From the NCBI GenBank assembly GCA_014905825.1, contig JACGCN010000003.1:620001-684000 (forward strand): a DNA stretch of 64,000 bases. Direction: 5' to 3'. The translations under genes were made by a program, and so were the position numbers. This DNA comes from Lyophyllum atratum (Eukaryota; Basidiomycota; Agaricomycetes; Agaricales; Lyophyllaceae). Positions 1,579-64,000 of this stretch are shown piece after piece. A model generated the notes under the pieces. That model made no database searches and was not told the origin of the DNA. It worked only from the letters and a program-made list of their open reading frames with translations. How positions within the stretch are numbered: position 1 is the first letter of the stretch; the number at the start of each line of letters is the position of its first letter.

Positions 1579-2174
1579 GATGAGAAGTGGAGTTGAGTCA
1601 ACCCCGGTGCTTCTGAGGCGCTTTAGAGGATTTTGACCTCACGCTTGGGTCGGCACGGCATTCTTACGCACACCACTCGGCGAGGTGGGACATGGGAATC
1701 TTGATCGAGGCGTCGCATGATTTGATAGGACATGTAACTTGAATGTGTGCTTCGGAAGTCTAACCGCGTCGACCATGAGCTTTTGACAAATATCATCTGA
1801 CATGGTTAGTATGGGAAGGAAGAGCGAACTTGGGTGCACCGTGGACGTACGCAAAAGTGATGCGTTTCAGTTCCCAGCAGATGCAATCTCTTCAGAAGCT
1901 GACCGTGAATGAAACGCAGTCGCAGTCATTTTGGCGGCGAGAGATGATTGGAGAGATCGCCAGTGCATGCGGATTCAAGGCATACCAAACTGATCGTGCC
2001 ACAGCAATGAATCATGTAAACCTGAGTCCCGTGGGTTAGGATTCCATGGCGCTGCAAAGTATCAACTTCCTAAGCTCGAACCTCACGTCGATCAACTGAG
2101 TCCTATAGGAAATGATAGAACAGAGATGAACCCCCGTTAAGATACACACTACGGTACATAGACAACGGGTAAAT
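1579..2174. other. intergenic between DLH copy 1 and GST, no gene seen
   Basis: Only short open frames without family resemblance. It probably holds the promoter of the minus-strand hydrolase and the 3' region of the GST. Confidence 0.45.
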
Positions 2175-34463: not shown

Positions 34464-35638
34464 GTGCTCAGGATCCGAACACGCTCCCACAGTCGAGCAC
34501 CCACCCCCGTCCGTACACCGTGTGCACTGTTCGGTGCTCACGTATCCGAACGCCTTGTATCCTGGATCCGGGCCGAGGACGCCGTTCCATATGGTGGAGA
34601 AGTCGACGTAGGAGACGCGCAGTCTGGGGCCGTTTTTGGGATTGCGGGTGTGGAAGTTGTGGAGGCCGGTGAAGATGGTTTGTTTGAATGATTCTCCGCG
34701 CGGGGAGGTTGTGCCGCGGCCGTAGACGTCGAGGACTAGGAAGGAGCGGGCGTTGGTTGGGGGGCTGGCTAGGAGTTCGATTTGGTTTAGGAGAGACTGT
34801 GCGGCTGCTTGCATGTTATCGCCATCGGCTGGAGGAGGGTATATGTGAGAGGGGGCGGTCTTTCGGGAATGTACGCACAGAGAGAGGCGATATAGTCGCT
34901 GAAGATGAGTGATGAGTTATGGATCGAGATTGAGGAAGGGCTTAATTGGTACTTGATACCGAAAAAGATGCTGTAGAGTGTCGTGCTTGGGTCCAGGCTG
35001 TGCCCTTGGCGCAAGAATGTCTGCACTATAGAGCATGTGAGATGACTGTCGGATGAGTGATGGAACAAGCCGATAGACCTTGATGTACGAAATCAGCTTG
35101 TCGGGGGTTGCTGGGCCAGAGTGACAGATCTATACACGCCGCGGATTGCTTTGAACGAAGTGGCATAAGTTGCAAAAGACGATGAGGCCGGGTACTAGTC
35201 AGATAGCTCACAGCGTAGTCTTTCAACGTCGCACCAAGGTCATTCGCTACATGCTCCACCCACGTCAACCCAGTAATAGACCGCCCGCCTGCCATGGGGC
35301 TGGGTGGAACTATAACCGGCGGGTCCAAGGGCCCACCATCGTCGTGCCCGCCATCCGTGTAACTGTCCTGCGGAGAAGCTGGTGTTGAATATCTGCCAAT
35401 GAATGGAAAAACTACCGAACAGCGGTGCTGCAACCCATACCCCGAAAGATACAATGGTCTTGTAGTGTTGCGGGAACACCCCCGCGTTCACGTCCGCGGT
35501 GGGACCGCTCAGGGGTCCACATCTAGGCTTGACAGCGAGGTGGATACCGTTGTTGTCGCCCCTCGTTCTGGTGTTGGCGTAGAGGCCGCTGGTGGATGCG
35601 CAGAGCGTCGCTAGAATGACGAGAGAGGACTTCCACAT
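34274..35638 (-). CDS. GDSL/SGNH carbohydrate esterase-like secreted protein
   Basis: Secreted serine esterase, probably of the fungal acetylesterase type (CE16-like, inferred). ATG 35638 gives the signal peptide MWKSSLVILATLCASTSGLYA. Block I, FGDSYTDGG, is made across an intron and holds the nucleophile Ser. Later exons give GLTWVEHVANDLGATLKDYA, GHSLDPSTTLYSIFFGI, NARSFLVLDVYGRGTT, LRVSYVDFSTIWNGVLG and CSDPEHYFYWF. The last exon begins with HPSKET, which supplies the catalytic Asp/His of block V (DPxxYFYW..HPS). About eight exons. A near copy of the last intron and exon lies just beyond the stop (34041-34254). Confidence 0.82.
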
Positions 35639-36053
35639 TGCGAAGGGATGTACACCTCCATGAATATCGTACCTCAATATCCTTTATAACGCTCAAGACG
35701 CCTGTCGCGTGCTCCCGCAAGAGGTGTCAAATCGGTCGATCACGGACATGGTTGATGGCTAGGGTACCCCCCACCTACCCCCCCAAATAAGGAAGCTGTT
35801 GGTACTTGTGTTGACCAACGGCAGCACGGCAAGTGATGAGCGGCATCCGAACGGCATTAACGTGAGCAAAGGACCCTGGCATCGACCTGACGCGTCTCTC
35901 TCTGCACGGCCTGCTCTTATCTAGCCTTGGAGACGCGTCTGCCCCGACATATCACTCTCATCATGGAGCCTTGATACTGTAAATACTGTATCAGAGCCTA
36001 ACCCTCATTTCTCTGTTCATACATTCTCAAATCTATCTCATAATGCTACACTA
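35639..36053. other. intergenic, no gene seen
   Basis: About 415 bp, divergent promoter region between the esterase and the transposase-like gene. Contains a C-rich run near 35765-35785. Confidence 0.4.
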
Positions 36054-38096
36054 CCAACCGGGACACATTCTGGATTACCACTCGAAAAACTCGACGCCGC
36101 GAGCGGATACCGCCTTGTCCTCTGTAAATTCTGCCACGAATACGTTAATCACGGTCAAGATAGAACTACAACGAATGCTCTTCGTAAGCACGAGCGAAAT
36201 CAGAAGTGTAGATTGGGACTTGCAAGTGCGTAACAATATCATATCATTTCATCTACTATTACTCAACTATTTCCGTGTACTCAGAACGGGTTCTTGAGGA
36301 AATAGATAGATCTGATCTTTCTGTGTCCCACACCGAGCCCTCGCGATGTAAAGGCGCAAGAGTTCAATGGGATCTAGGTTCACCATATGTGACCTATCCT
36401 TTTTCCATCCACGATCCTGCTTCCCGTTTCACCCCAGGGTACGATCTCGTTTCCATCGATCCTCGGGACTCCACTGTTTCTGTTCGGTCACCTCATTGCA
36501 CTGGACTGCTGTCCACCATCGCCGGCCCATGCTTTGCTTGTCAGACTACGAGCTCGCTCGTCGCGGCTGTCAAAGATCGTACGGAAAAGCCTGCAACGAG
36601 GCTCGATCATACCAGTATGAGCAATGGTCAACTTAGAGAGAGGTTGAAAGAAGTAGAGCAGGATCTGAAAGATGTAACTCTCGAGGTGCGTACAGTAGCC
36701 TCACACTGTTAATCGTCATTTCTGATCTTCTCGCAGCGTCTTAACGTCTCTCGGGCACTCGCTCGCCTCCGTGTTCACCAAGATACTTGGAAGCACATTC
36801 TCGACCTTGTCGGCACTCAAGATGTACCCGCCTTACATCGCATCTTCAAGAATTCGAAGCGTCGCAGTTGGAGTGCGGAGCATCTACTCGAAAAGATCAA
36901 GATGGCTCTGGCCGGAGACTATCGTGCTCGAAGCTACTCCGACCTCGAGATTGAACTTGCCACCGTCGTTTATGAGCTTGGCGGTGATGCAGCTCTTCAT
37001 GCGCTCCATAATTCGCCCTTTGTATTCCCGTGTCGCAATACTCTCCTCGAGCACCGCAGAGAGTTCCGTCTGCACATCACAGTCGGGGCCATCACGATGT
37101 CCGACATCCTCGCGAACATTGGGATCATGTTTGCGGATGTTAAGCCTGGACATTCGAGGGCTGGGATAACACTTTCCATGGACGAGATTGCGAGCGATGG
37201 CAGGTTGTGTTACCTTACCATGACTGACGAAATTGCTGGGCTCTGTGAGCATGCCGCGACAGAGTTATCGTCGTTGAAAATGGGAACGAATCTCAATGTA
37301 GTGCGTGCGGTTCGACAGGCATTACAAGAAGGTAAAATACATGTCGGGCAGGAGGTTTTCGTGGCTGCTTTTGCTCGCAACGATGAGGAGGGCTATGGTG
37401 CCAGGCCTGTTTTATTAATCCCAACGTGTAAACGAGGCTCATTTCGAGACTCTGCACTCGTCATGGAGATGCTTCGGCAGGCATGGAAGATTTCGCCATA
37501 CGGAGAGAGCCTTCACGGTCCAATCTGGTCAATAGCGTCAGACGGTGACCCTAAACGAAGGCCTGCTCTATATCTTCACTGTATGACCCGCGAGCTTCGT
37601 CCTACGGATCCACTCTTCCAACATCTCGAAAATCTTCCTGGAATGAACGTGTGGACAGGTCCTAACGGCGAAACACAGGATTTAGATTATAAGCATTGTT
37701 TCAAACGTAGGTACACTAATCTAGCTTCTGTTCTCGAAATCTGCTGACTTCTTTCGAGGCCTATGCAAGCTGCTTTGCGCGCGAGAGGGGATCCTTATTG
37801 GTGATGTTATTATCAACAAAAGTCTCCTCGCGCTTTGGTTTGAGCGTCTGACTGACGTCGATTGGTCGAAAAACTCGATATATTCACTCCTCAACTCTGA
37901 TTCTTCAATTTCCGAACGCATACATGCTCTCCTCAGCCCTAAAGATGCACAGGACGTACCAAGAGCTATTAAGCTGCTGAATATCACTGCTGACATTCGC
38001 AATCTCGACAACTCCGCATTTGATCCCTCAGAACAAAATACCCATCGCGCTCTTTCTCTGCTTGGCGAGATGCTTGATTGTGCTCCCGAACAGTAG
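36054..38096 (+). pseudogene. truncated zinc-finger, THAP9/P-element-like transposase family gene
   Basis: Member of a family I know as widely repeated in Agaricomycetes and usually left hypothetical. Frame 36081-36227 encodes a zinc-finger-like CKFCHEYVNHG...LRKHERNQKC. Spliced exons then give EEIDRSDLSVSHTEPSRCKG, LREREVEQ-type coiled coil, RRSWSAEHLLEKIKMALAGDYRA, YELGGDAALHALHNSPF, RITVG-like HITVGAITMSDILANIG, SMDEIASDGRLCYL and LDYKHCFKR. The last block resembles the D-x-KH motif of P-element/THAP9 transposases (inference). After an intron it continues LLCAREGILIGDVIINKSLL and stops at 38094-38096. The usual C-terminal half is missing. No clear start codon was found in frame. It ends 137 bp before the big palindrome. 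Confidence 0.6.
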
Positions 38097-38248
38097 CAGT
38101 GGACCGGGCTCGGATACCCAGAATAGGATAGTCGCTCGCGGCGGTCCCGAAGAGCCAGCGGAAGGTGGTCGGCAATGTACACTAGCTTTGATCTTGCTTT
38201 GATCGAACCTGATACGGCCCTGTGCCAGACCATTAGGCTCGTGACCAT

Positions 38249-38283
38249 CCGCTATCGGCAATCGTAACCTCATGCGATAGCGG
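38249..38283. repeat. left subterminal stem-loop
   Basis: Mirror image of 50381-50415. Perfect 9-bp stem CCGCTATCG/CGATAGCGG with a 17-nt loop, ending 15 bp from the element's outer border. Confidence 0.85.
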
Positions 38284-38312
38284 CTGGAATGCACGGTCAG
38301 TCACATTGCGGG

Positions 38313-38339
38313 GTCACACGTCTGCCCGCCAAGTGTGAC
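38313..38339. repeat. left inner inverted repeat GTCACAC/GTGTGAC
   Basis: Mirror of 50325-50351: a 7-bp stem with 13-nt spacer, between the DUF6589 stop and the terminal stem-loop. Possibly a protein-binding site (inference). Confidence 0.6.
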
Positions 38340-38408
38340 ACGGGACTTAGCCAAATTTTCGAAATCTGTACAGTGCGCCCAGGCCAAATGAATGAAAAAG
38401 TTGATTTT

Positions 38409-41400
38409 CTACATATCAAACTCAAATACACTGTCGTCTTCATCCTCATCACTTCCTAACTCACTTTCCTCGTCTCCATTGAGATATCCAGCCATATCTT
38501 CGGCATCCATGTCGAGTGAGACGTCGGCGGCACTTTCCAATGCCAAAGTTTCGTCCTCATCATCCTCGAATCCTCGCAAGAACTCTCCCAGTTCTTCGTC
38601 ACGCGGATCATCAATGTCATCGTCATCAATATCCGCTTCGTCCTGTGCGAGAGCCCGTGATTCAGGCAAATGATCAACGTCGTTCGTGTCGAGAAGAGTT
38701 TCTGCCGGTGTTGAATATGAATTGGCCTTGTTGGACATCTCTTCGCCAATGACAAGCGGTCTGAGGCGGCGGCGAGCCTGCAGGTGATTAAAGGCCTTCC
38801 TGTAGTCGGAAAGAGGGCTGTTGGGGCCTGATATGAGGTCTGTCAGGCCCGTGGTGGTGACATCTGGAGCGGGAGGGTCGTCGTCATCGAGGTATCTTCC
38901 TTTCTTGTATTCATAGACCTCGTATTCGTCCAGGCTATCCATGATGTCAGGAATGTCGAGGGATAAGTCCATAGGATGGTGGTCTGTGCCAAGATTGGTC
39001 CCGAGCATTTTTTTGAAGTTTTGTGCGAGCTGCCGGAGGATGTTCACACAGGGCGCAATCATCGCGAGCCATTCCCAGGACGCAGCGCTGCCATGGGCAC
39101 GGTAGAAGTTCTGTAAAACAGAAGTCACGGCCCATAAGTACGCGAAGTAATAGGTATCGAAAACACATACCTTTATCCAAAAGTTCATGTGTTCTTGCAT
39201 AAGGTCAACCTCAACCCATGAATTCGGATTCCCGGTCGGATTCACGAGCCAGTTGTTGAGCACAATTTCACTGTTTGATCTTTGAGTCGAGAACGATAAA
39301 CCCTCAAAAAATCGTACCGTATACTCTTTGGCCAGACCGATGTGATGTTGTGAATGAGATGTAACATCTCATGCGCATATTTCGTGCGGCCATTTCCACG
39401 GAAGCTGAGCGCCCATATCTTCAGAATGAGTACAATACGTCCTGAGTCACCAGCCTTGACCGCATCAGTGAACTCGCGCGACAGCAAGGCGTCACGAAGG
39501 AATAAGATCGCGTTTTCGTAGACCATGTCACCGTCGCGAGGTATTGGCTCTCCTGGTTTGACATTCTGCCTTGCAATCTCACGTCGACGTCGGAGCTCCG
39601 CCACAGTATCGGCATTAGCATAGATATCTATCAAAGTGTGCGCATCGCGCTCCAGCTGTGCCCAGGTGAGGCCTTCACTGTATTCCTCAAGAGTGCCTGA
39701 TTTCGAGATGAGGAGGAAGCACTGAAGCACTCGGGCATACAGCGACACAAAAATGAGGTCTCGACAGGTTCGGAATGGAGGGAGGGAGGTCAGGACAATG
39801 GGTTTTCGTTGAAGGACAGTGTTGTGAAACGAGAGAGAACCCGGGTTTCGTGGACCAGCTGCAGCCTTCCCGAAGTGGGTGACAAAAAAGCCATGCACAT
39901 CAGCCATCTTCGCATGGAAAAGGCCGGGCATCCATACACCCCACCCAAACCCAGTATATCCACCTTCGTGGCCTGCGCGAATATTGACGAGTGATCGAAG
40001 ACGTGCGACTGTGAGTTGGTCACCACAGAATATCTTGACGATGCAAAGCCAATCCTTTATTTTCTTGATCCAAAGGACGTCAAAGACAGCATCGACAACT
40101 TCTGCACCACCTATAATAGTGGATTCATCGATGTCAAAGGCAGGAAGGGGGTGGAGGGGGGTCTTGTGTAACTCGATCTTGTGTTCGCTGCAGGGTAGGG
40201 TACGGTCTACATATTTGACAAATTTATTGAATCCGTCACCTCCGTGAGCTATGATGATGCGTAATATGCAATGGGTCAGGTTGGTTCGTAGCTGCGCGGA
40301 TTCAACGGGGTTCAGAACGACATCATGGATAGCGAGTGGTGCCGCGGCCGTGAAGGCAGCTTCAAGATCGGACACCTGCATATCAGCAACTGCGGCCTTG
40401 AAAAGCGGCCAGATAGTTGCGCATGTCCCGTTTTCTTGTGCATCTATTGTCATTGATCAGTAAGCATGAACGAATAACCAGAAAGTTACTGTTACCTGTC
40501 CGACCGACAATCTGTTCGGCGGCACGGAAGACCATATTAATGTTGTCGTATGAACATGCAAAGAGACCTGTCGATGCAATGACACGGGCCACATCGACCA
40601 TGGATGCGGAAAGTTGGCGAAGGGTCCCCCCTTTCACGTCATACATCACATCATACATCTCTTCAGCAGTCATGTTTGCGAGGTTGTCGAGAGCAGGGGA
40701 GGCAGTGGCGTGGGCGTTTGGTGTTGGTGTGGTCGGCTCTTCAAGAGTCTTCTTCTTTCGCCGACGCTTCTGGCGGATGATTGAATCATAGCTCTCTGCG
40801 ACGCCGATATGTGTCATGACAGAAAGTGCCTGCTTCTGGATTCCTGAGCTGTAAAGGTACAGACCCATGACTTTCTTCGCCCAGTTGTTGCTATAGCTAT
40901 ACTCCCCCAGCAGCGCAAGAGCGGACCAAGTCACAACCTGTCAAGCCGATCAGAGACTTCGCAAAACATTAAACAAGTCATTACTACGCACATTCAGTTT
41001 CTTCGCGAAGCGGGCTGGAGATGCTGTCTTGAGTTGGCGGGTGGATGTTGCGAACGATTCCAAGATTCGCATGAAAGCAGAACCCTTCTGTCGTAGATAG
41101 GATTGGACAGCACCCATCTCGAAGCCCAGAACAAACTGCAAGTCGATAGGCCGCTGCGAAGTTTGAAGCTTCTGGTCAAAGGTAATTTGCCGGGCTTCAT
41201 ATCGTACTTCTTTCGCAACATATTCAACTGCCCAATCATGCACCTGCTCACGCGAGGCAGGAGTGCTTTGCGACGCCCACAAATTGAGCAGCTGTGGAAC
41301 TGTGGTCCGGTCACGAAAAAGGCCTTCCCATCGAGCCTGGCGCTGTTTGTACATGGGGTTTGAAAGGTAGAGGAGGAACTCTCCAACCGTGTAGCCGTGC

Positions 41401-41768
41401 CTCTTGAGAGATGATAATGTCTCATCAAAGAACGTAGACTTCTCGAGAGCCCTGGCTGCGATGCGCGCCCCCTCTTCCTCTTCGAGCCTCAGCCTCGCCG
41501 CTTCTGCCTCCTCTCGTTGAGTCTGAAGAGTGCCGAGGCGCTTACGGACAGACTCCTGCCGGATTAGCGCCGCTCTTTGCGCTTTCGTGCCAACAATGGG
41601 CGTGATCTTCAGCATCTCAAGCCCATCACTCGAAAATGGGGGGAGGGATTGTGCACGAGGGAGTGGAGTGGAAGGTGCACATGCAGGCTGCAGAGTGGGC
41701 GAGGATGGGAGAGAAGTCAGTGGTGATGGTGGTGACGACGGAGGCAATGAAGACTGGTGGTCCATCAT
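38409..41768 (-). CDS. DUF6589-domain protein, left arm
   Basis: About 1048 residues in five exons, identical to the right-arm copy (46896-50255, where I placed the splice sites). The frame upstream of 41768 has no ATG; MMDHQSSLPPSSPP is the start. The N-terminal 110 residues are disordered and Glu/Arg-rich. Then a conserved helical region (YTVGEFLLYLSNPMYKQRQA, VTWSALALLGEYSYSNNWAK) is followed by the DUF6589 core: FCGDQLTVARLRSLV, GHEGGYTGFGWGVWMPGLFH, AKMADVHGFFVTHFGKAAAG, LNNWLVNPTG, DLMQEHMNFWIK. The tail is strongly acidic (DEADIDDDDIDDPRDEE). DUF6589 is widespread in mushroom genomes and has no assigned activity. Asp/His-rich core patches could be a nuclease or transposase site, but that is a guess. 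Gene intact. Confidence 0.8.
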
Positions 41769-41835
41769 TGAAGACTTGTGAGGAGAGTCGTCGGAAGTGA
41801 TCGACAAATTTCTACGATCTTAGACACGGCCGGCC
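41769..41835. promoter_or_regulatory. 67-bp divergent promoter region, left arm
   Basis: Everything between the start codons of the DUF6589 gene (41768) and the helicase gene (41836). Such a short spacing means the two genes share one bidirectional control region and their 5' leaders are tiny or overlap the coding parts. No TATA element is obvious. Confidence 0.6.
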
Positions 41836-44266
41836 ATGCCCGGGCCACCACCCAAGGGCACTCGTCGTCGACAGCGGCAGCACCAAGGAACTATCAATAC
41901 CAGTGACCCACAAGTACCAACAAGAAAAGCTTGCACTGACGAGGAACTCGTTGGCTTAAAAGAAAAGATCACCACCCAATTCAACTGGAAGGACGGGCCC
42001 AAGGACTTTCAAATGAAGGGAATCAATGCGCAGCTACAAATGCGCGACGCACTTGTCCATGCTGGCACTGGATCCGGAAAGACGGGCATTGCGGCAGGTC
42101 CGCATGTGCACCCGAGCATGGAGGGGAGGATCACACTGATGGTGTCGCCACTTATTGCTCTGCATGACGAGATGGTCAGTACTACTTAAGCCTAGGACAT
42201 ATAATTATGCTTACAGCTGTGTATACAAGTAGGTTGAGACATTCCGTGATGAGTTTAGGTTAAATGCCACCGCTGTTAACAGCAGTAATGGCGGATGTGC
42301 ACCCGACAAGCTGAAGGTATGTTTGTGTCAAATAACTTGGCTGAGATCAAACATGCTCACCTTCGAGACAGAAAATCACGCAGGGAAATTGGCAGGTCGT
42401 CTTGATCTCGCCTGAGCTTGTCTTGTCACGGCGGTTCATCCAGGATGTCCTGAAACATCCCGAGTTGAAACGACGTGTACTTTCCGTGGTGGTTGACGAG
42501 GCCCATGTCATCTCGCACTGGGGAAATGGTTTCAGAAAAAAGTACGGCGAGCTGGGGATTCTGCGATCGTTCTTACCGAAATCGACACCCATTGTCGCGG
42601 TATCTGCTACACTTGCTGCTCGTGTCCGTCGAGATGTCCTACGTGTGCTGCGATTTCATCAGAATGAGTATGAGGATATTGATGTAGGAAATGACCGACC
42701 TAATGTCTCCATTGTCATCCGAAGCATACATCATCCCCTGAATTCCTATGCCGATCTCGACTTCGTCATCAACGAAGGTGCACAGGACCGCCACGATATC
42801 CTCAAGACATTTGTATACTGCGACAATATTGCAATGGGCACGGAGATAATAGACCACCTAACCGACATACTGCCTCGTCATCTCCGTAAACTTGGCCTCA
42901 TCCGACCATACAATGCCTGCTTCTCAAAAGAGTACCGACGTGCAGCCATGACAGAGTTCAGAGCAGGTCGAGTCCGGATACTCGTCTGCACAGATGCTGC
43001 GGGGATGGTGAGCTAAAAGTTCAGAAATTATGAGCCCCAAGCTAATGATTGAACAGGGATGCAACTTACCGGACATCGACCTTGTTGTCCAGTGGAAGGT
43101 CCCGAAATCAATATCCGCTTTCGTCCAACGGGCAGGACGAGCAGCACGGGCATTAGAGAAGGGTCTTGCTGTACTTCTAACAGAGCCGTCGGTATATAGC
43201 ACAGTCCTGAACGAGCATGGAGGGCGGTCAAAACCAAAACCACAAGCAAGGCGAGGCAAACCCACCAATGCCACGTCGGTACTGGTGGACAAAGTGACTG
43301 CAGAGGAAACTAAAGCAAAGAGGAACTACGCGATTGCGCGAGGTGTCAAGCGGGGCGGGGCGGACAAGAAACATGATGCAGTGCTCATCCGTGACTGCCC
43401 ACCCATTGACCCGGAAGCGGAGGACGAAGGATTGGTGAGTCTTGTGCAGTCGGGGACCTGTCGCCGAGCAGTTTTAACCAAGGTCTATAATAATAAACCT
43501 GCTGGTAAGTTCGTTGATCGAAACCCCAGGGTTATAGGTACTCACCAAATGTGCAGAGCCGACTGTACCCTGCTGCGATATATGCGAGCCATGGCTTCTC
43601 GACCTAACTCGGCCTGGCGAAGCACCAAAATCAGCTGCGCGACGAAAGAAGATTAAGACTGGTCAGTTGTGCAGCACGGTACAGGACGAGTTACACACCT
43701 GGAGAATGGATATCAAATATCGTGATTTCCCTTATGCACTGTTCAGCTGCGAGGCCATCCTGTCCAACGAGATGATCGCAAGATTATCATCTGTAGGGCC
43801 AATCGAGTCGCGACAAGAATTATCAGCAAAATTGTCCAGTGAATGGGGGTGGGAAGACACTTACGGAGACGAGCTCTTCATGCGCATCTCAAGCCTCAAC
43901 ATACCATCCATGGTACCTCTTCCAACAAAAGCGCGCCAGGTGGGGTTGAAGAAAAAGGCGGTCGACGTGGCAAATGAAGCAGCGGTGGGAAGAAAGAAGC
44001 CTGCGACAGAGAAGGCCATGTTAACTCCATCCGCCGTGTTAACTCCTGCTATGGCCGCGGGTCAGCACGAGTTTCGGATTTCAGATTATCAGCATGTTGG
44101 AGCGCACCTCCAGCCTCCTAGCTTCCTGCAATTCTCGTTCAATGATCCATCACAAGCCTCAAACTCGGCACTCTCTCAGACATCCACATGGGCTCAGGGC
44201 ATTCTCGCGGACAAAGCTGGCAAGGAAGACGAGGAACAGAGTGATGGTAACGATGTAGACTTCTAG
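41836..44266 (+). CDS. RecQ-like DEAH-box DNA helicase, left arm
   Basis: Exons 41836-42174, 42233-42316, 42372-43007, 43057-43504 and 43557-44266, giving about 738 residues. All superfamily 2 motifs are readable: motif I AGTGSGKTG, Ia VSPLIALHDEM, II VVVDEAHVISHWG (DEAH), III VAVSATL, IV TFVYCDNIAMG, V RVRILVCTDAAGMGCNLPDI, VI QRAGRAARA. A Cys cluster follows (CRADC-type frame replaced after splicing by PCCDICEP), as in the zinc-binding part of RecQ proteins. The C-terminus is unrelated to known HRDC domains as far as I can see. A 3'-to-5' ATP-driven DNA unwinding role is expected for the family. RecQ-like helicases are often carried by subtelomeric or mobile DNA in fungi. Gene intact. Confidence 0.88.
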
Positions 44267-44325
44267 TGATATGATAGTTGACTGAATGAATGTTGATAAA
44301 TTCAAGTTGGACGCGACGGACAGAA

Positions 44326-44338
44326 CATACCTCATCAC
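44326..44338. other. palindrome axis, 13-bp unpaired spacer
   Basis: Sequence CATACCTCATCAC is the only non-symmetric stretch between the two arms. The flanking arms are complementary up to 44325 and 44339. Both helicase genes end close by (44266 and 44398), so they converge with 131 bp between stop codons. Confidence 0.9.
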
Positions 44339-44397
44339 TTCTGTCCGTCGCGTCCAACTTGAATTTATCAACATTCATTCAGTCAACTATCATATCA

Positions 44398-46828
44398 CTA
44401 GAAGTCTACATCGTTACCATCACTCTGTTCCTCGTCTTCCTTGCCAGCTTTGTCCGCGAGAATGCCCTGAGCCCATGTGGATGTCTGAGAGAGTGCCGAG
44501 TTTGAGGCTTGTGATGGATCATTGAACGAGAATTGCAGGAAGCTAGGAGGCTGGAGGTGCGCTCCAACATGCTGATAATCTGAAATCCGAAACTCGTGCT
44601 GACCCGCGGCCATAGCAGGAGTTAACACGGCGGATGGAGTTAACATGGCCTTCTCTGTCGCAGGCTTCTTTCTTCCCACCGCTGCTTCATTTGCCACGTC
44701 GACCGCCTTTTTCTTCAACCCCACCTGGCGCGCTTTTGTTGGAAGAGGTACCATGGATGGTATGTTGAGGCTTGAGATGCGCATGAAGAGCTCGTCTCCG
44801 TAAGTGTCTTCCCACCCCCATTCACTGGACAATTTTGCTGATAATTCTTGTCGCGACTCGATTGGCCCTACAGATGATAATCTTGCGATCATCTCGTTGG
44901 ACAGGATGGCCTCGCAGCTGAACAGTGCATAAGGGAAATCACGATATTTGATATCCATTCTCCAGGTGTGTAACTCGTCCTGTACCGTGCTGCACAACTG
45001 ACCAGTCTTAATCTTCTTTCGTCGCGCAGCTGATTTTGGTGCTTCGCCAGGCCGAGTTAGGTCGAGAAGCCATGGCTCGCATATATCGCAGCAGGGTACA
45101 GTCGGCTCTGCACATTTGGTGAGTACCTATAACCCTGGGGTTTCGATCAACGAACTTACCAGCAGGTTTATTATTATAGACCTTGGTTAAAACTGCTCGG
45201 CGACAGGTCCCCGACTGCACAAGACTCACCAATCCTTCGTCCTCCGCTTCCGGGTCAATGGGTGGGCAGTCACGGATGAGCACTGCATCATGTTTCTTGT
45301 CCGCCCCGCCCCGCTTGACACCTCGCGCAATCGCGTAGTTCCTCTTTGCTTTAGTTTCCTCTGCAGTCACTTTGTCCACCAGTACCGACGTGGCATTGGT
45401 GGGTTTGCCTCGCCTTGCTTGTGGTTTTGGTTTTGACCGCCCTCCATGCTCGTTCAGGACTGTGCTATATACCGACGGCTCTGTTAGAAGTACAGCAAGA
45501 CCCTTCTCTAATGCCCGTGCTGCTCGTCCTGCCCGTTGGACGAAAGCGGATATTGATTTCGGGACCTTCCACTGGACAACAAGGTCGATGTCCGGTAAGT
45601 TGCATCCCTGTTCAATCATTAGCTTGGGGCTCATAATTTCTGAACTTTTAGCTCACCATCCCCGCAGCATCTGTGCAGACGAGTATCCGGACTCGACCTG
45701 CTCTGAACTCTGTCATGGCTGCACGTCGGTACTCTTTTGAGAAGCAGGCATTGTATGGTCGGATGAGGCCAAGTTTACGGAGATGACGAGGCAGTATGTC
45801 GGTTAGGTGGTCTATTATCTCCGTGCCCATTGCAATATTGTCGCAGTATACAAATGTCTTGAGGATATCGTGGCGGTCCTGTGCACCTTCGTTGATGACG
45901 AAGTCGAGATCGGCATAGGAATTCAGGGGATGATGTATGCTTCGGATGACAATGGAGACATTAGGTCGGTCATTTCCTACATCAATATCCTCATACTCAT
46001 TCTGATGAAATCGCAGCACACGTAGGACATCTCGACGGACACGAGCAGCAAGTGTAGCAGATACCGCGACAATGGGTGTCGATTTCGGTAAGAACGATCG
46101 CAGAATCCCCAGCTCGCCGTACTTTTTTCTGAAACCATTTCCCCAGTGCGAGATGACATGGGCCTCGTCAACCACCACGGAAAGTACACGTCGTTTCAAC
46201 TCGGGATGTTTCAGGACATCCTGGATGAACCGCCGTGACAAGACAAGCTCAGGCGAGATCAAGACGACCTGCCAATTTCCCTGCGTGATTTTCTGTCTCG
46301 AAGGTGAGCATGTTTGATCTCAGCCAAGTTATTTGACACAAACATACCTTCAGCTTGTCGGGTGCACATCCGCCATTACTGCTGTTAACAGCGGTGGCAT
46401 TTAACCTAAACTCATCACGGAATGTCTCAACCTACTTGTATACACAGCTGTAAGCATAATTATATGTCCTAGGCTTAAGTAGTACTGACCATCTCGTCAT
46501 GCAGAGCAATAAGTGGCGACACCATCAGTGTGATCCTCCCCTCCATGCTCGGGTGCACATGCGGACCTGCCGCAATGCCCGTCTTTCCGGATCCAGTGCC
46601 AGCATGGACAAGTGCGTCGCGCATTTGTAGCTGCGCATTGATTCCCTTCATTTGAAAGTCCTTGGGCCCGTCCTTCCAGTTGAATTGGGTGGTGATCTTT
46701 TCTTTTAAGCCAACGAGTTCCTCGTCAGTGCAAGCTTTTCTTGTTGGTACTTGTGGGTCACTGGTATTGATAGTTCCTTGGTGCTGCCGCTGTCGACGAC
46801 GAGTGCCCTTGGGTGGTGGCCCGGGCAT
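44398..46828 (-). CDS. RecQ-like DEAH-box DNA helicase, right arm
   Basis: Mirror copy of 41836-44266 with the same exons at 88664 minus each coordinate: 46828-46490, 46431-46348, 46292-45657, 45607-45160 and 45107-44398. The predicted protein is identical, including Walker A, DEAH and arginine-finger motifs. Because both copies are intact and identical, either the duplication is very recent or the arms are kept alike by gene conversion. Transcripts of the two copies would be complementary through their 3' ends if transcription passes the axis. Confidence 0.88.
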
Positions 46829-46895
46829 GGCCGGCCGTGTCTAAGATCGTAGAAATTTGTCGATCACTTCCGACGACTCTCCTCACAAGTCTTCA
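46829..46895. promoter_or_regulatory. 67-bp divergent promoter region, right arm
   Basis: Mirror image of 41769-41835, lying between the helicase start (46828) and the DUF6589 start (46896). Confidence 0.6.
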
Positions 46896-49800
46896 ATGAT
46901 GGACCACCAGTCTTCATTGCCTCCGTCGTCACCACCATCACCACTGACTTCTCTCCCATCCTCGCCCACTCTGCAGCCTGCATGTGCACCTTCCACTCCA
47001 CTCCCTCGTGCACAATCCCTCCCCCCATTTTCGAGTGATGGGCTTGAGATGCTGAAGATCACGCCCATTGTTGGCACGAAAGCGCAAAGAGCGGCGCTAA
47101 TCCGGCAGGAGTCTGTCCGTAAGCGCCTCGGCACTCTTCAGACTCAACGAGAGGAGGCAGAAGCGGCGAGGCTGAGGCTCGAAGAGGAAGAGGGGGCGCG
47201 CATCGCAGCCAGGGCTCTCGAGAAGTCTACGTTCTTTGATGAGACATTATCATCTCTCAAGAGGCACGGCTACACGGTTGGAGAGTTCCTCCTCTACCTT
47301 TCAAACCCCATGTACAAACAGCGCCAGGCTCGATGGGAAGGCCTTTTTCGTGACCGGACCACAGTTCCACAGCTGCTCAATTTGTGGGCGTCGCAAAGCA
47401 CTCCTGCCTCGCGTGAGCAGGTGCATGATTGGGCAGTTGAATATGTTGCGAAAGAAGTACGATATGAAGCCCGGCAAATTACCTTTGACCAGAAGCTTCA
47501 AACTTCGCAGCGGCCTATCGACTTGCAGTTTGTTCTGGGCTTCGAGATGGGTGCTGTCCAATCCTATCTACGACAGAAGGGTTCTGCTTTCATGCGAATC
47601 TTGGAATCGTTCGCAACATCCACCCGCCAACTCAAGACAGCATCTCCAGCCCGCTTCGCGAAGAAACTGAATGTGCGTAGTAATGACTTGTTTAATGTTT
47701 TGCGAAGTCTCTGATCGGCTTGACAGGTTGTGACTTGGTCCGCTCTTGCGCTGCTGGGGGAGTATAGCTATAGCAACAACTGGGCGAAGAAAGTCATGGG
47801 TCTGTACCTTTACAGCTCAGGAATCCAGAAGCAGGCACTTTCTGTCATGACACATATCGGCGTCGCAGAGAGCTATGATTCAATCATCCGCCAGAAGCGT
47901 CGGCGAAAGAAGAAGACTCTTGAAGAGCCGACCACACCAACACCAAACGCCCACGCCACTGCCTCCCCTGCTCTCGACAACCTCGCAAACATGACTGCTG
48001 AAGAGATGTATGATGTGATGTATGACGTGAAAGGGGGGACCCTTCGCCAACTTTCCGCATCCATGGTCGATGTGGCCCGTGTCATTGCATCGACAGGTCT
48101 CTTTGCATGTTCATACGACAACATTAATATGGTCTTCCGTGCCGCCGAACAGATTGTCGGTCGGACAGGTAACAGTAACTTTCTGGTTATTCGTTCATGC
48201 TTACTGATCAATGACAATAGATGCACAAGAAAACGGGACATGCGCAACTATCTGGCCGCTTTTCAAGGCCGCAGTTGCTGATATGCAGGTGTCCGATCTT
48301 GAAGCTGCCTTCACGGCCGCGGCACCACTCGCTATCCATGATGTCGTTCTGAACCCCGTTGAATCCGCGCAGCTACGAACCAACCTGACCCATTGCATAT
48401 TACGCATCATCATAGCTCACGGAGGTGACGGATTCAATAAATTTGTCAAATATGTAGACCGTACCCTACCCTGCAGCGAACACAAGATCGAGTTACACAA
48501 GACCCCCCTCCACCCCCTTCCTGCCTTTGACATCGATGAATCCACTATTATAGGTGGTGCAGAAGTTGTCGATGCTGTCTTTGACGTCCTTTGGATCAAG
48601 AAAATAAAGGATTGGCTTTGCATCGTCAAGATATTCTGTGGTGACCAACTCACAGTCGCACGTCTTCGATCACTCGTCAATATTCGCGCAGGCCACGAAG
48701 GTGGATATACTGGGTTTGGGTGGGGTGTATGGATGCCCGGCCTTTTCCATGCGAAGATGGCTGATGTGCATGGCTTTTTTGTCACCCACTTCGGGAAGGC
48801 TGCAGCTGGTCCACGAAACCCGGGTTCTCTCTCGTTTCACAACACTGTCCTTCAACGAAAACCCATTGTCCTGACCTCCCTCCCTCCATTCCGAACCTGT
48901 CGAGACCTCATTTTTGTGTCGCTGTATGCCCGAGTGCTTCAGTGCTTCCTCCTCATCTCGAAATCAGGCACTCTTGAGGAATACAGTGAAGGCCTCACCT
49001 GGGCACAGCTGGAGCGCGATGCGCACACTTTGATAGATATCTATGCTAATGCCGATACTGTGGCGGAGCTCCGACGTCGACGTGAGATTGCAAGGCAGAA
49101 TGTCAAACCAGGAGAGCCAATACCTCGCGACGGTGACATGGTCTACGAAAACGCGATCTTATTCCTTCGTGACGCCTTGCTGTCGCGCGAGTTCACTGAT
49201 GCGGTCAAGGCTGGTGACTCAGGACGTATTGTACTCATTCTGAAGATATGGGCGCTCAGCTTCCGTGGAAATGGCCGCACGAAATATGCGCATGAGATGT
49301 TACATCTCATTCACAACATCACATCGGTCTGGCCAAAGAGTATACGGTACGATTTTTTGAGGGTTTATCGTTCTCGACTCAAAGATCAAACAGTGAAATT
49401 GTGCTCAACAACTGGCTCGTGAATCCGACCGGGAATCCGAATTCATGGGTTGAGGTTGACCTTATGCAAGAACACATGAACTTTTGGATAAAGGTATGTG
49501 TTTTCGATACCTATTACTTCGCGTACTTATGGGCCGTGACTTCTGTTTTACAGAACTTCTACCGTGCCCATGGCAGCGCTGCGTCCTGGGAATGGCTCGC
49601 GATGATTGCGCCCTGTGTGAACATCCTCCGGCAGCTCGCACAAAACTTCAAAAAAATGCTCGGGACCAATCTTGGCACAGACCACCATCCTATGGACTTA
49701 TCCCTCGACATTCCTGACATCATGGATAGCCTGGACGAATACGAGGTCTATGAATACAAGAAAGGAAGATACCTCGATGACGACGACCCTCCCGCTCCAG

Positions 49801-50255
49801 ATGTCACCACCACGGGCCTGACAGACCTCATATCAGGCCCCAACAGCCCTCTTTCCGACTACAGGAAGGCCTTTAATCACCTGCAGGCTCGCCGCCGCCT
49901 CAGACCGCTTGTCATTGGCGAAGAGATGTCCAACAAGGCCAATTCATATTCAACACCGGCAGAAACTCTTCTCGACACGAACGACGTTGATCATTTGCCT
50001 GAATCACGGGCTCTCGCACAGGACGAAGCGGATATTGATGACGATGACATTGATGATCCGCGTGACGAAGAACTGGGAGAGTTCTTGCGAGGATTCGAGG
50101 ATGATGAGGACGAAACTTTGGCATTGGAAAGTGCCGCCGACGTCTCACTCGACATGGATGCCGAAGATATGGCTGGATATCTCAATGGAGACGAGGAAAG
50201 TGAGTTAGGAAGTGATGAGGATGAAGACGACAGTGTATTTGAGTTTGATATGTAG
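46896..50255 (+). CDS. DUF6589-domain protein, right arm
   Basis: Exons 46896-47672, 47727-48168, 48221-49346, 49394-49493 and 49554-50255 sum to 3147 nt, 1048 residues plus stop, with all junctions in phase. Donors are GTGCGT, GTAACA, GTACGA and GTATGT. The protein is identical to that of the left arm. The best conserved DUF6589 segment straddles exons 4-5 (LNNWLVNPTG, MNFWIK, NFYRAHGSAASWEWLAMIAP). An acidic tail ends EDEDDSVFEFDM. The stop is 175 bp from the element border, leaving room only for a short 3' UTR and the terminal repeats. The partner helicase is divergent. Molecular role unknown; tied to the helicase by its arrangement. Confidence 0.8.
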
Positions 50256-50324
50256 AAAATCAACTTTTTCATTCATTTGGCCTGGGCGCACTGTACAGAT
50301 TTCGAAAATTTGGCTAAGTCCCGT

Positions 50325-50351
50325 GTCACACTTGGCGGGCAGACGTGTGAC
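50325..50351. repeat. right inner inverted repeat GTCACAC/GTGTGAC
   Basis: 7-bp stem at 50325-50331 and 50345-50351 with a 13-nt spacer. Further GTGAC-type words occur between here and the border. Confidence 0.6.
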
Positions 50352-50380
50352 CCCGCAATGTGACTGACCGTGCATTCCAG

Positions 50381-50415
50381 CCGCTATCGCATGAGGTTAC
50401 GATTGCCGATAGCGG
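50381..50415. repeat. right subterminal stem-loop
   Basis: Stem CCGCTATCG (50381-50389) and CGATAGCGG (50407-50415) around a 17-nt loop, followed by 15 bp to the border at 50430. Placement close to the terminus suggests a recognition or processing site (inference). Confidence 0.85.
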
Positions 50416-50600
50416 ATGGTCACGAGCCTAGTGTTCACCGTTCAAAGTTCACAGCTCGTTGGGTTCAGTAGACAGCATGCAGCTGTTACTGCTTTGTACG
50501 AGGCTAAAGGAGGGAATGTTCAATTACAGAAACACAGCTTGCGGGCAACTTATACATGACAGTAAATCGACATCTTCATCAATGAAGTCGGTATTGTTGC

Positions 50601-52861
50601 CTACGCATCATGGCGAGCCTGTTTATCAACTTCGAAAGCTGCCTTCACCTACGGGATACTGTAAAGTGGCTGCTTTTGTGAATGGATCTCGGATTGCTTA
50701 CCTTCTCAAAGAAGCTATCATCGGAGAGAACACGGAAGCCCGTCAGCGCCAAACCTTTCGTCACTTTCATCGTCGCGGTGTGCGCCTCCTGCGTCTTGGC
50801 GGACCTGGTGAATCCACTGGTGTGGTTTCCACCATCTGGCTCGGTAGGAATGGCTATTGTGCGATATCACGATCCGAAGTTCAAAAAGGCGTCACGGGTT
50901 GACTGACCGTAAAGAGGATGGAGCGCCGGCAGTTCTACAGCATATTCATCAGCTAAAGATCCGCAGGAGTGCAGAGTGGGTAAAAGTACCGTATGTGACG
51001 TTTCCCTGTTACGAATGTTAGGGTAAAATTATACAGAGTCAAAGGGAAGACTCGCAAAATCAGTGGATGCAGCGGATCCTATGTAGTTGGCGGTCATCTC
51101 ATACCGGCTGGTGACATTATTAGCAAATTCTTCGGCTGAGAGAACGTAAGATTAGCTGGAGTCACATTGCCAGCTTAAGAAAATAAGCTCGAGATCAAAA
51201 GGAGAGTACCTAGGGCAGAGTTCTGGCGTAAATCAAAGTACGGCGGATGCATCTCAAATTTGACCTTGCAACCGGTGGAAGCTGCAGCACCCCTGTCGGC
51301 TACTGTCAGGAGTTAAGACCAAGTCACATTTCAAGGACACTCACAAGAAGCATTGCTTAACACGTTCCATAATCTCCCCCAAATCCGCCTTGGTTGGAGC
51401 TCGAACAATATATGTTAACCTCGCATTATCAGGTATAGCTGAAAAAGGGTTAGTCGGTCGATAGCATTCTAAAAGAGAAACTAGCCGTACTATTTGGGGT
51501 CCAGTTGGTTCCTTCGATGATGCCATGGACGCGGAGATCTGGCTTCATCTGTTGTCGAAGTGAAGAGATAGATGAATAAGCAATAACAGCTGCGTCCAAA
51601 GCGTTCGTCCCCTCCCTGAGCAGTTATCAGTAACTTTTTCTTGCCTCAGGTCCAGAAATACCAACCATGGCGCTGCAGCAGCATGGGCACTAGATACATG
51701 TTAGCTATGACATGCGCTTGGATTGAGGTAGGGAACAACATACGCGTGGCCGGTATAATCAATGTACATGCTTTGTGCAGCACCAGTTGGCCCATTGCTT
51801 ACAGACGCGATTGGTCCCGACATTGGGTGCGACCTGTTTGGGATCGTCATAATTTGCCCAAACACGTATGCAGCCAAGAAATTGACGTACATAAGACAGG
51901 CATCCATCTCTTTATACGCGTCCCTCTCAATGAGAGTGATCTTTCCTCCTAACCCTTCTTCACCTAGAGTCGACTCTCGTCAAATCATACGACTGTGCAG
52001 AGGGGTGGGATACACATACCAGGAGTTCCCAAGAGGATGATCTTTCCGGGAACACAGTGGGCTACTAAGGCGGACTTCACAGCAACCGCGATTCCCAGCC
52101 CGCATATTGCGATTAAATTATGGCCACACGCGTGTCCAATGCCAGGGAGCGCGTCCATCTCAGAATTTATACCAAGGACTCTCCCTCCACTTCCGACAGT
52201 GTACTCTGCACGCCAGGCCGTATCGAGCCCGGCGTAGTGACGCGTAACCTCGAAGCCATGCTTCTCCATGAAATCAGCCATTATATCATGGGCGTACCTA
52301 TTGGGCCCATGTCAGCTTCAGGCCTGAGATAGCTACAATCGCGAATGGTCACTGACGTCTCTTTGAATGCTAGTTCGGGATGGCCTTGGACATGGTCATG
52401 TAAGGGTAAGCCCGAGATAAACGCGAAAAGACACACCATGAATATCCAAGCTCAACTTGCGCAGCTGAGGGTCGAGCTCATCGAGCTTTGATTCGATGGT
52501 CTTAATGATTTCTGCGGCCAATACAGGCGCCTTCTCTCCACTAAGCATATATCCAGGCGGAGAGTACGAGGGCGGTGCCTCAGCGTTCAGTGACCAGTCG
52601 GCTCCAAAATTGTGGGGTAGGAAATGACCATGCTACCCGAACTTCAATATGTGGTATTCGCGGGTCAACAATCGTACTCACCTTGCCTGCAGCATCTTGT
52701 TTGTCCTCCGCTTCGCTATCCTTCTGATGCACCGCTGTATTTCCACCTTGTGAAGACTTGCCCGCACCCAAAATACCTCGTCGACGAAGCAACTTTCCGA
52801 AGTTGAAACTGCTGAAACAGCCTGGCTGCACGTTAGAGTTCGTACCAGAAGGCGTTGCCAT
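50601..52861 (-). CDS. M20-family amidohydrolase
   Basis: Metal-dependent amidase/peptidase (ACY1L2/AmhX-like). ATG 52861 (MATPSGTNSNVQPGC). After a disordered head come LDELDPQLRKLSLDIH, GHPELAFKET, EYTVGSGGRVLGINSEMDAL and PGIGHACGHNLIA with the metal-binding His/Asp/Cys residues. Further exons give GKIILLGTPG, the dimerisation-domain pieces (SMYIDYTGHA, AHAAAAPW) and TYIVRAPTKADLGEIMERV. Across the final introns STDFGNVTYELPALHP, IPTEPDGGNHTSGF and VKAAFEVDKQARHDA reach the stop at 50601. One intron (51006-51055) has a GC donor. About fifteen exons. The substrate is probably an N-acyl amino acid or small peptide (inference). Its 3' end lies 170 bp from the palindrome and is undamaged. Confidence 0.87.
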
Positions 52862-53234
52862 GGAAGTTGGTGCTGGAGCGTGGTAGAGAAATCATTTTGA
52901 TAGAGTGCAGTCTTATGGGATGTCCGCGTGAGCGGTGGGGTCAAAGATACAGATGCCCGACATCATCGGGAGCGTGGGATGCATCATGCACGCATGTCTG
53001 CGGCGCAGCGGCGGCTTCAAGAAGATTGCGGATCACTTCCTGCTGCGGCCATGACAGGTCCTTATGTATACGTTTTCTACTGCCTTCAGATAATTGAAGG
53101 AAGTCAAGAACGAGGTTTTATGACAGAAATGAAGAAGTTACGATAAGGATTATAAGAAGTTACGACAACGTTTACAGAAATATCATACATTCAGCTGCAT
53201 TATTCTGAGTGCCCGGTTTCCAGTTCATCGAAGA
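52862..53234. other. intergenic, no gene seen
   Basis: 373 bp between the amidohydrolase start and the 3' end of the second chitinase. Nothing recognised. Confidence 0.4.
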
Positions 53235-60465: not shown

Positions 60466-61604
60466 ATGGATCTGGAAAGTAAACGCGTGATGAGGGGATC
60501 GATTCAAGTTTCGAACGACTCTGAACGTGTCACAGATGCGGACGAAGAGGTGAGTGCCGATCTCGTGGTCTCGCTCCACAACTCCTGACCGATTCCTTAG
60601 GTTTTCATTCTTTACTCTGGCTTGCAAAAAGGAATAGAGACGAACACTGATACCTTTCGTGGGCTGGGTCACGTTGACTCTCGCAAGGACACCATGTCGA
60701 TTACATTCGAACTCAAGGCACCTACATATGCGACCACAACAGATACGAAAACAACGAGGTCGACCCGGCACAGGAAAACCCAGAAGCCAAACAAGGGCCT
60801 TGACAAGACGGTGCAAATTGAGCTCTCACAAGATAAAACTGCTCTTCGGACGCGCAAAGGTGATACAGGAAGTGTGTTGTGGAAAGCCAGGTTCGAATCT
60901 AGAACATAATTGCAATATACCCTATCATCTTGACATGATTCTAGCATCGATTTTGCACGTGTGATCCTCCAGCAAATCCATGCTCAGGCCGCCAACAGTT
61001 TCTTCGACCCATCCATCTTAGAGACACAACACGTCGTGGAACTCGGGTTCGCTGATCTCGACATGCGTCTTTAGGCCAGTCCTCACTCACTCTCTTTCCA
61101 TGGTATCGTAGTGCTGGAACTGGTTTGCTGGCGATTGCATTCGCGCCCCTCGTGCGCCGCTATACTGTTACGGATATCAACGACCTCGTACCCCTTCTTC
61201 GCAAGAATGTTGCGTCCAATTTTGATGGTTGGCCTGGTCGATGTGCCCCACCCGCTCCCGGGTCCAATGTATTCGTCGAAGAACTGGACTGGGTTCTTCT
61301 TAGCTCCACAAACGCGTCACAGCGCGGCAGAGTAGTGGATATAGAGCCGGCAGACCTGATACTCGTGGTAGACTGCATCTACCATCCGTCTCTCCTCCCG
61401 TCTCTCATCGAGACGATAAACCATCTTTCTGTTCCTGGGCGAACAGCGGTGCTGGTTGTTGTTGAACTCCGCGCGGAGGATGTCATCCGTGAATTCTTGG
61501 AGCTCTGGCTTTCACGGCCCGGATGGGAAATATGGAGAATCGAGGGATTGCTTGATAGACCATACGCGACGTGGCTTGGGTGGCAGACCGAAAATACCCA
61601 ATAG
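60466..61604 (+). CDS. METTL21/Rkm5-like protein-lysine methyltransferase
   Basis: SAM-dependent methyltransferase of the Methyltransf_16 family, most like ribosomal lysine methyltransferase Rkm5 (inferred from layout). ATG 60466 (MDLESKRVMRGSIQVS), with a second in-frame ATG at 60490. Exons join as ADEEVFILYSGLQ, then TGSVLWKASIDFARVILQQ, VVELGAGTGLLAIAFAPLV (motif I), YTVTDINDLVPLLRKNVASN, DLILVVDCIYHPSLLPSLIE and a C-terminus ending TWLGWQTENTQ. Four exons. All core motifs are intact. Substrate assignment to a ribosomal protein is uncertain. Confidence 0.83.
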
Positions 61605-61978
61605 ATTCGTGTTTTCATTGCTTGTTCCCGTGAATTGAATTCATCGCTCGCGTCTCGGGTGTGGAGCGTTCGATACAGGATTCCAAGATCGCAATCGGCC
61701 CCAATTTCCCAAGTCAAGTCACCGGCGTGCACCCCGCCACAAATCACATATGTATGTTGCCTGATATTCCATTTTCGTCGCGGCGTCTTGTCTTTCATGT
61801 CACATCAAAATTCCTCCAAGCTTCTCAATTCAATTCGGGATTCACAGAAACCATGAGATGTTGCCATGTTGACAGGCCATGTTTCAGGGACCGCTTTCCT
61901 AATCTTATAAGTACTCCCAATCTGCGCCTGCTCTCTTTTCCCCAGGTTGAGCTCATCTTAACCAACGCATCACACCCC
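61605..61978. other. intergenic, promoter of the H3-like gene
   Basis: 374 bp upstream of the histone gene. No clear element. Confidence 0.4.
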
Positions 61979-62618
61979 ATGGCGCGCACCAAAATGACCG
62001 CTCGAAAGTCGGTTGGCGGAGGTACGCGCCTCCTCTTTTCGGGTCTCTATGACTACTAACGCCCTTCCACCCGGCATCCATAGACCCCGCAAAGGCAAAA
62101 ATCCGAAAACCTCGCTTCGATCATCCAACGAATAATTCTGACCTGCCACCCGGGACTGGCTGGAAATCTACTGGTATCCGCAAGCAGGTCTCCATCAAGA
62201 CCTTGAGCGGCAAGGTCATGGTGAAGAAAGATCTCGCCGTCAAACGTCCCCGTCGATTCCGCCCCGGCACTGTTGCCCTGCGCGAGATCAGGCGCTTCCA
62301 GAAGTCCACCGAGCGCTTGATCCCGAAGCTGCCTTTTCAGCGCCTCGTTCGTGAGATCGCGCAAGACTTTCACGTACGTCCTTCTCTGCCTTTCAGTCGT
62401 TCCTGGTTAGTCCGTGAATCATATTGATTCTATTTTTGCCTCAGATGGATCTTCGTTTCCAGTCGTCGGCCGTCATGGCGTTGCAGGAGGCAGCCGAAGC
62501 ATACATCGTTGAATTGTTCGAATGCACCAACCTCGCTGCGATCCATGCCAAGAGGGTCACGATCATGCCCAAGGATATGGAGCTGGCGAGGAGGCTGAGG
62601 GGTGAGCGTGGGGTGTGA
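61979..62618 (+). CDS. divergent histone H3 variant with extended tail
   Basis: Exons 61979-62021, 62084-62373 and 62445-62618 give 168 residues against 136 for canonical H3. The start [14 protein letters not shown] keeps K4, R8, K9 and S10 but has Met for Gln5 and Val for Thr11. Residues 15-72 replace the normal tail with a longer sequence ([40 protein letters not shown]). From [20 protein letters not shown] on, the fold is close to canonical: [54 protein letters not shown]. Loop 1 has no insertion, so it does not look like CENP-A. Changes include ELFECTNLA for GLFEDTNLC. Introns and a lone location suggest a replication-independent variant. Confidence 0.9.
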
Positions 62619-63020
62619 ATGATCGCCGGTGGCTTTATAAGTAGTGTATGAATTGGGGGATTAGGGTGTGACCGTCGCTTTGATATGAAAAGAAATTCTG
62701 GACATTAATAACTGTTTTGTACTGCGTATATTGTAACAAAGACTTCATATATTCGATGGCTGATTATCGGTGTACCGGAGCTTTTGAGGCTGAGCTCCTG
62801 TGTCCCCTGATTGAGCGTTGCAACAGAGCCTGCAACGTTTTCCCATCTTCGTCTTGTAAAACAACAATTGTACCACTCACTGGCAACTGACCACAAAAAA
62901 GAACCTTGGTGTAGCATGGCGAATGTGACCAGGAACTTGCACTTAGATAGATAAATAGCCCTATAATTATTATGATACACACATATCCCTATAAAATTCG
63001 ATTTTACGACCCAGACGGGC
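62619..63020. other. intergenic between convergent genes, no gene seen
   Basis: About 400 bp, AT-rich near 62945-63005. Shared 3' flank of the histone and protease genes. Confidence 0.4.
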
Positions 63021-64000
63021 CTACAGCAACAGCCCGACCATCAAAGAACCAGTCCACACCGCTATCAATGTAATGGAATGCACCCGTGGACCGGGACTAG
63101 ATATTGAGGCATCCGGAATACCGGTGGCCGCAACCGTGGCCGCGATGGATCCGATCGTGGCGCTCGGTGCTGGGATGTTGGCATTATTGAGCGAGAGTGC
63201 CACGTCCGAGAGCTGTGCAAATCCGACTGAGGGGGGATCGTAGCGGAATGCGGAGTACACATTTTTCTGTTCGCCAAGTCGGTGAAAATGTTCATGAGAA
63301 GGGTCTAGAAGAAAAAGGACGTACGAGGAATGTGTCACCCACGATCCAGGTCGGGGCAGAGCGCCCCGTCGTGAGGATAAAAACCGCGCCGAGACACTGC
63401 CGCTGCGACAGCTGTGTAAGTTTGAAGTCGGTCTCGCTGATCGGCCAGCTCCGGCCGCCGAATGCCATCGTGGCGTTAACGACTGTGCTACACGCTAAAA
63501 ATGGTAGGAAGTGTGGTGAGGATGTGTTTCATTGATCAAAAGCTTCGGTTGACTTACGATAGGTGAAGTAACCCTCAAAGTTACCTGTGCCAGGTGCTGC
63601 ACCGGGGATCTTGGAATAGAATTCAGTCACGACATCTTGAGGACCACCAATGAGCGTCGTTCCCGTATCTATGGCTGCATACGCCTCGCGCCCGCTGGGA
63701 ACATCTACAGAATTACCCTGGGTTGTGAGTGCTGTAACGTTGGGCTGAGTTATACAACGCATTGAACGGCAAGATAAAAGGACGACGTACACGTCAAAGG
63801 GAGGATCCAAAACGACGCGGTAGTAGCGAGATCAACGTATTCAATATCGCCCGTATACAGGGTTTTGTTTACGGCACCTGTATTTGGCCCCATGGTCAAG
63901 ACAAAAAGCATGAATGGATAGATTAAGCGGAAAACGTACCCATTGTGAATGTGCCTCCAAACTCGACGCTCTGGGAGTCTGGATCAGCGATATGTCTGTC
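63021..64000 (-). CDS. aspartic protease (A1), C-terminal part; runs off the window
   Basis: Pepsin-like secreted protease, 3' half only. Reading from the right edge: VEFGGTFTM, YTGDIEYVDLATT, then NSVDVPSGREAYAAIDTGTT with LIGGPQDVV (second catalytic Asp in DTGTT). Next come YSKIPGAAPGTGNFEGYF, MAFGGRSWPISETDFKL, PTWIVGDTFLKNVYSAFRYD and VGFAQLS, the typical end of the fold. A Ser/Pro/Ala stretch and a hydrophobic end, SITLIAVWTGSLMVGLLL, point to a GPI-anchored or membrane-bound form. Stop at 63021. At least five exons seen; the first catalytic motif and signal peptide lie outside the window. Confidence 0.87.

Follow-up and report, generated by a model that had tools for sequence, protein, structure and literature searches.

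We analysed a 64,000-nucleotide stretch of the genome of Lyophyllum atratum, an agaric of the family Lyophyllaceae (the window; positions 620001–684000 of C75, a contig of 2,627,816 bp in an assembly of 64.76 Mb and 151 contigs), in which an initial annotation had marked a large palindrome. The palindrome occupies 38234–50430, and its annotated coordinates, arm length of about 6.09 kb and sharp ends proved exact. Its arms (38234–44325 and 44339–50430) are reverse complements of each other at 6,092/6,092 positions, with 0 mismatches, and a 13-bp centre (44326–44338) holds the only non-complementary positions inside the outer ends. Beyond these ends identity is 18% over the next 50 bp, which defines both borders to the base. 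A palindrome of this kind is far beyond chance. Each arm is a copy of a DNA transposon, relatives of which lie on other contigs of the same assembly (C57, C80 and similar labels denote such contigs).

In each arm, a DUF6589 gene (PF20231) is accompanied by a RecQ-type helicase gene on the opposite strand. In the left copy, the DUF6589 gene lies at 38409–40634 on the minus strand and matches PF20231 in a Pfam search (E = 9.7e-103 and 5.7e-27); an exon model built from tblastn with homologues of named fungi places its exons at about 40634–40497, 40444–39317 and 39269–38436. A 285-amino-acid open reading frame (ORF) without a Pfam match occupies 40950–41807 (minus strand). The helicase gene (41836–44266, plus strand) reads towards the axis and has several exons, modelled by inspection. 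It shows Pfam matches to DEAD and Helicase_C, and WRN, RecQ and BLM chains align to 42402–43016 (best E = 9.6e-14); its translation contains GTGSGKT, DEAH and QRAGRAAR, which we take to be helicase motifs. The right arm mirrors this arrangement, with the helicase gene at 44398–46828 (minus strand, again reading towards the axis) and the DUF6589 gene at 48030–50255 (plus strand; PF20231 matches at C75:668319–669685). The helicase genes of both arms point at the axis; their stops lie 59 and 72 bp from the point where the two copies are joined, and their native 3′ tails are gone. The initial description of both copies of each gene as intact holds in that the arms do not differ and the left arm's last helicase ORF stops at 44266, before the join, but both transposon copies lack their right terminus.

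A PF20231 search of the assembly gave at least 40 matching stretches, which we grouped into 21 places, both counts being lower bounds. A protein search with a 403-amino-acid ORF found 416 homologues, 120 of them listed, and the listed entries that name an organism are fungi that we take to be agaricomycetes. Sequence comparison tied DUF6589 to no DDE family or solved structure (best E = 0.12 in a profile search of solved structures), and a term search of the literature library consulted gave no paper on it. Separately, a 384-bp piece of the C-terminal helicase ORF (43668–44051) is 91% identical to a segment of a repeat that measures at least about 3 kb and is 98–99% conserved at four places (C76, C13 and two on C2; L021–L024), which suggests capture of a gene fragment.

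Both outer ends of the palindrome are left termini of the transposon; like independent insertions, they begin exactly at the terminal T of TAGG. The left terminal sequence, TAGGCTCGTGACCATCCGCTATCG, stands at 38234–38257 on the plus strand and, as the left terminus of the right copy, at 50407–50430 on the minus strand. A genome-wide search for it at ≤3 mismatches returned 9 matches, against 0 for a reversed control; two are the palindrome's own ends, and one, on C119 with 3 mismatches, reads as a right-type end. The right end, in copies that have one, is an inverted TAGACTCG... sequence. Perfect 9-bp target duplications flank all seven copies for which both ends were located (C61, C64:888k, C122, C1, C119, C76 and C57). 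This count leaves out the diverged copies at C64:305k and C13:288k, which have a left end and no right end in the DNA examined, and two matches in L012 and L041 that resemble a terminus loosely and were not accepted as ends. The copies on C122 and C76 are interrupted by other DNA (about 3.7 kb in C122); on C76 the ends lie ~17 kb apart with 2 kb between them unread, and they were paired on account of their identical nonamer and shared terminus types. The full element measures ~6.28 kb. These data describe the termini and the 9-bp target duplication of the DUF6589/RecQ transposon family. They also exclude a Helitron or other one-ended element, an idea raised when only the hairpin-bearing left end seemed to recur, since right termini are inverted and 9-bp duplications are present. 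Short non-autonomous derivatives of the family with 9-bp duplications occur as well, at 125 bp (C1:1212645–1212769, L017), 929 bp (C61) and 938 bp (C64) (L011, L012, L013).

The palindrome departs from this pattern. Its outer flanking nonamers, CCAGACCAT at 38225–38233 and GTGTTCACC at 50431–50439 (both plus strand), agree at 1/9 bases, so that no target duplication spans the structure. We presume that each is instead the outer copy of the 9-bp duplication of a separate insertion, the second copy of CCAGACCAT being absent at the other flank; the corresponding nonamers on C80 are CCAGACCGG and GTGTTCATC.

The nature of the centre emerged from comparison with a single, non-palindromic relative at C57:322626–328728, which differs from the arm by 28 substitutions and an 11-bp indel and has kept both termini. 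The C57 match at first seemed to stop at the last base of the arm. At that base, however, sits a long terminal repeat (LTR) element (C57:317087–322625; L009/L043), beyond which the transposon runs for 184 bp more, after GACAGAA, to its right terminus, closing with a second copy of the duplication CGTAATAAT. GACAGAA was accordingly rejected as the natural right end of the transposon. The LTR element, with 330-bp LTRs that show 0 differences and a 5-bp CAGAA duplication, is recent. A search with the flank on the other side of the C57 copy gave a match on C112 that starts 64 bp out and a short repeat beside the element.

The C57 continuation begins GTGATGAGTATG, and the centre of the palindrome, read on the minus strand, is GTGATGAGGTATG. 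Judged by this match, the 13 bp are the right copy's own tail, and the centre belongs to that copy. The initial annotation was correct about the size of the centre, which is not a neutral spacer. The join accordingly falls at 44325/44326, connecting position 6092 of the left copy (38234–44325, plus strand; positions 1–6092, without the last ~184 bp that include the right terminus) to position 6105 of the right copy (44326–50430, minus strand; positions 1–6105, without the last ~172 bp). The extra G in the centre relative to C57 may be a difference between copies or a trace of repair. By inspection, the join lacks microhomology, and it offers no pairing for snap-back priming, which was rejected as a source of the palindrome. 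Original target DNA was likewise rejected as the source of the centre, which has no match to L042 at ≤3 mismatches.

A related site without the palindrome is present on C80, which is collinear with the window in the four stretches compared (35141–35717, 38080–38231, 50430–53000 and 60502–63500) at 82–92% identity. Near-identical pairs of matches on different contigs in several searches suggest that the assembly contains two haplotypes. On C80, 273 bp separate the two points that match the ends of the palindrome; relative to C80, the palindrome site is short of these 273 bp of target. The initial annotation had proposed an empty site joining 38233 directly to 50431, and no such site was found. 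The only genome match listed for the 273-bp interval is itself, which speaks against a repeat inserted in C80, a single-copy insertion there being still conceivable.

These observations favour an origin in which two tail-to-tail insertions were followed by one central deletion, a reading to which we assign a probability of roughly 70%, because no 9-bp duplication spans the palindrome, in contrast to 7/7 family copies, and 273 bp of target are missing relative to C80. In this scenario, two ~6.28-kb copies would have inserted in opposite orientation, tail to tail and ~0.27 kb apart, in one haplotype, each generating its own 9-bp duplication. One copy may have arrived by a local hop from the other, as suggested by the closeness of the insertions and the identity of the arms. 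The resulting long inverted repeat would have broken near its centre, perhaps at a hairpin or cruciform, and been rejoined end to end. The deletion would start within one copy, end within the other and remove, from left to right, the end of the left copy, its inner duplication, the target interval, the second inner duplication and the end of the right copy (184 + 9 + 273 + 9 + 172 = 647 bp). This would leave a 12-kb palindrome bounded on each side by an exact left terminus.

Closely spaced inverted copies are prone to breakage at the centre. Small asymmetric central deletions allow cells to stabilize palindromes and short spacers already help, according to an excerpt of PMC8701086. The palindromes described there share with the present one a long inverted repeat around a small asymmetric centre (a 12-bp spacer in one yeast construct), and differ in being transgenes and reporter constructs rather than a natural transposon pair (PMC8701086). 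On the two-insertion reading, a perfect palindrome of 12 kb can arise from two ordinary insertions and a central deletion, without special palindrome-making machinery.

Several points weigh against this origin. By our own arithmetic, two insertions falling by chance within 0.3 kb of each other are improbable (~3e-4 expected for 9 random sites in 64.76 Mb), and a local hop or some other coupling must therefore be assumed. The breakpoints are only 13 bp apart in element coordinates, a near-symmetry that a random deletion would not predict. C80, with 82% identity in the 153-bp piece on the left, has diverged, and its 273 bp may reflect a history of its own. An intermediate with full right ends plus the 273 bp was not seen. 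Finally, the base at which the LTR element entered the C57 copy is the exact base at which the left arm ends, a coincidence that the model leaves unexplained. One guess is that the central break was made when an LTR element failed to integrate at a preferred site. GACAGAA occurs once in the 273-bp C80 interval, and a single-step join using it was not found.

The arms, being wholly identical, mean either a recent origin or ongoing gene conversion; the palindrome looks recent, in agreement with one of the two options (recent origin or a protective mechanism) raised by the initial annotation. The same identity (6,092/6,092 positions, against 28 substitutions in the nearest other copy) would also fit a palindromic dimer made elsewhere, by end-to-end fusion of two truncated or sister copies, which then used its two left termini, or end joining, to enter the site as one piece, target DNA being lost. 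The exact outer ends and the near-symmetric breakpoints fit such a dimer too. Insertion of one palindromic unit, as initially proposed, would nevertheless require both the absence of the duplication found at 7/7 family copies and the loss of 273 bp of target to go unexplained, and no second palindromic copy appeared among the matches listed in the genome search, whose counts are lower bounds. We consider the dimer improbable.

Somewhat less probable still is an artefact of assembly or reads at the axis, by which the true locus would comprise two complete inverted copies with ~273 bp between them and fold-back reads would have dropped the central ~0.65 kb. Assembly of long inverted repeats is difficult, and this locus is known here from the assembly alone. 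The join, however, is asymmetric by 13 bp and has native sequence on one side only, unlike a mirror turn-around. Even such an artefact would leave two real inverted insertions, as each flank joins a left terminus and C80 has the two as neighbouring sequences. A plain fold-back read artefact is unlikely, as the initial annotation had argued from the bounded structure, because it would have mirrored the flank, whereas the two flanks differ and lie close together on C80. The palindrome, though read only from assembled sequence, is probably real. An ordinary foldback-type element, mobile as a unit and bearing ~6-kb inverted repeats, would account for the long identical arms and the terminal repeats at both outer ends, but is very improbable given the lack of a flanking target duplication, the distinct left and right termini of the single-unit C57 copy, its closest relative, and the lack of another palindromic copy among the matches listed.

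The known system closest in structure is maize Mu killer (Muk), in which part of the transposon MuDR is duplicated in inverted orientation. An excerpt of PMC3440606 describes two termini that both derive from one end of the element, with two copies joined as an inverted duplication; the palindrome likewise combines two copies of one element end with an inverted duplication of transposon genes. Mu killer differs in that its mudrA copies are partial, and it is reported to silence MuDR, whereas the present structure, in a fungus, consists of nearly whole elements with both genes. The genome contains matches to the Piwi domain (Argonaute type). Because the helicase genes converge near the join without their native 3′ tails, transcription might read through and yield hairpin or double-stranded RNA over the element. 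On this basis the palindrome could be a natural fungal counterpart of Mu killer, through which an Argonaute pathway silences the whole transposon family, an idea that we hold only tentatively and regard as rather unlikely. If true, the double insertion would have turned into a self-made off switch for the family. The long-hairpin model has itself been questioned for Mu killer: the same excerpt reports that silencing plants had two short antisense transcripts unable to form large hairpins, and that minor longer transcripts may contribute (PMC3440606). In a fungus that has Piwi-domain genes, the locus offers a clean opportunity to ask whether inverted transposon pairs start the silencing of their own family.

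Two transposon groups invite comparison with the element itself. Target duplications are generally 3–4 bp in Academ elements and TTAA in Kolobok elements, whereas those of the present family are 9 bp and contain TTAA in 0/7 cases. The element resembles the helicase-encoding AcademH transposons, sharing with them an SF2/RecQ-type helicase, and is at most a candidate member of that group: AcademH elements are DNA transposons with terminal inverted repeats in basidiomycetes, said in part of the cited account to be low-copy in Basidiomycota (PMC10799480), and Academ elements encode a RecQ helicase (excerpt of PMC3627910), as the present one does. A RecQ helicase is likewise a feature of KolobokH, a group of fungal DNA transposons (excerpt of PMC9587614); in KolobokH it follows downstream of the transposase domain, whereas here it is a divergent gene on the strand opposite to DUF6589, taken as the transposase.

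To the right of the palindrome, the M20 gene of the initial annotation could not be confirmed: 0/23 flanking ORFs, some of them overlapping, match Pfam, although introns break the reading frames. On the left, what had been described as a truncated transposase-like gene is instead a separate 2.36-kb insertion (35718–38079) that is not in C80, is bounded on each side by its own 9-bp repeat GTGCTCCCG and has ORFs without a Pfam match. A search with its 344-amino-acid ORF listed 81 homologues (one being its own record), the named ones from agarics, and positions 36000–38077 of the insertion recur as a 99% identical copy at C119:541533–543608.

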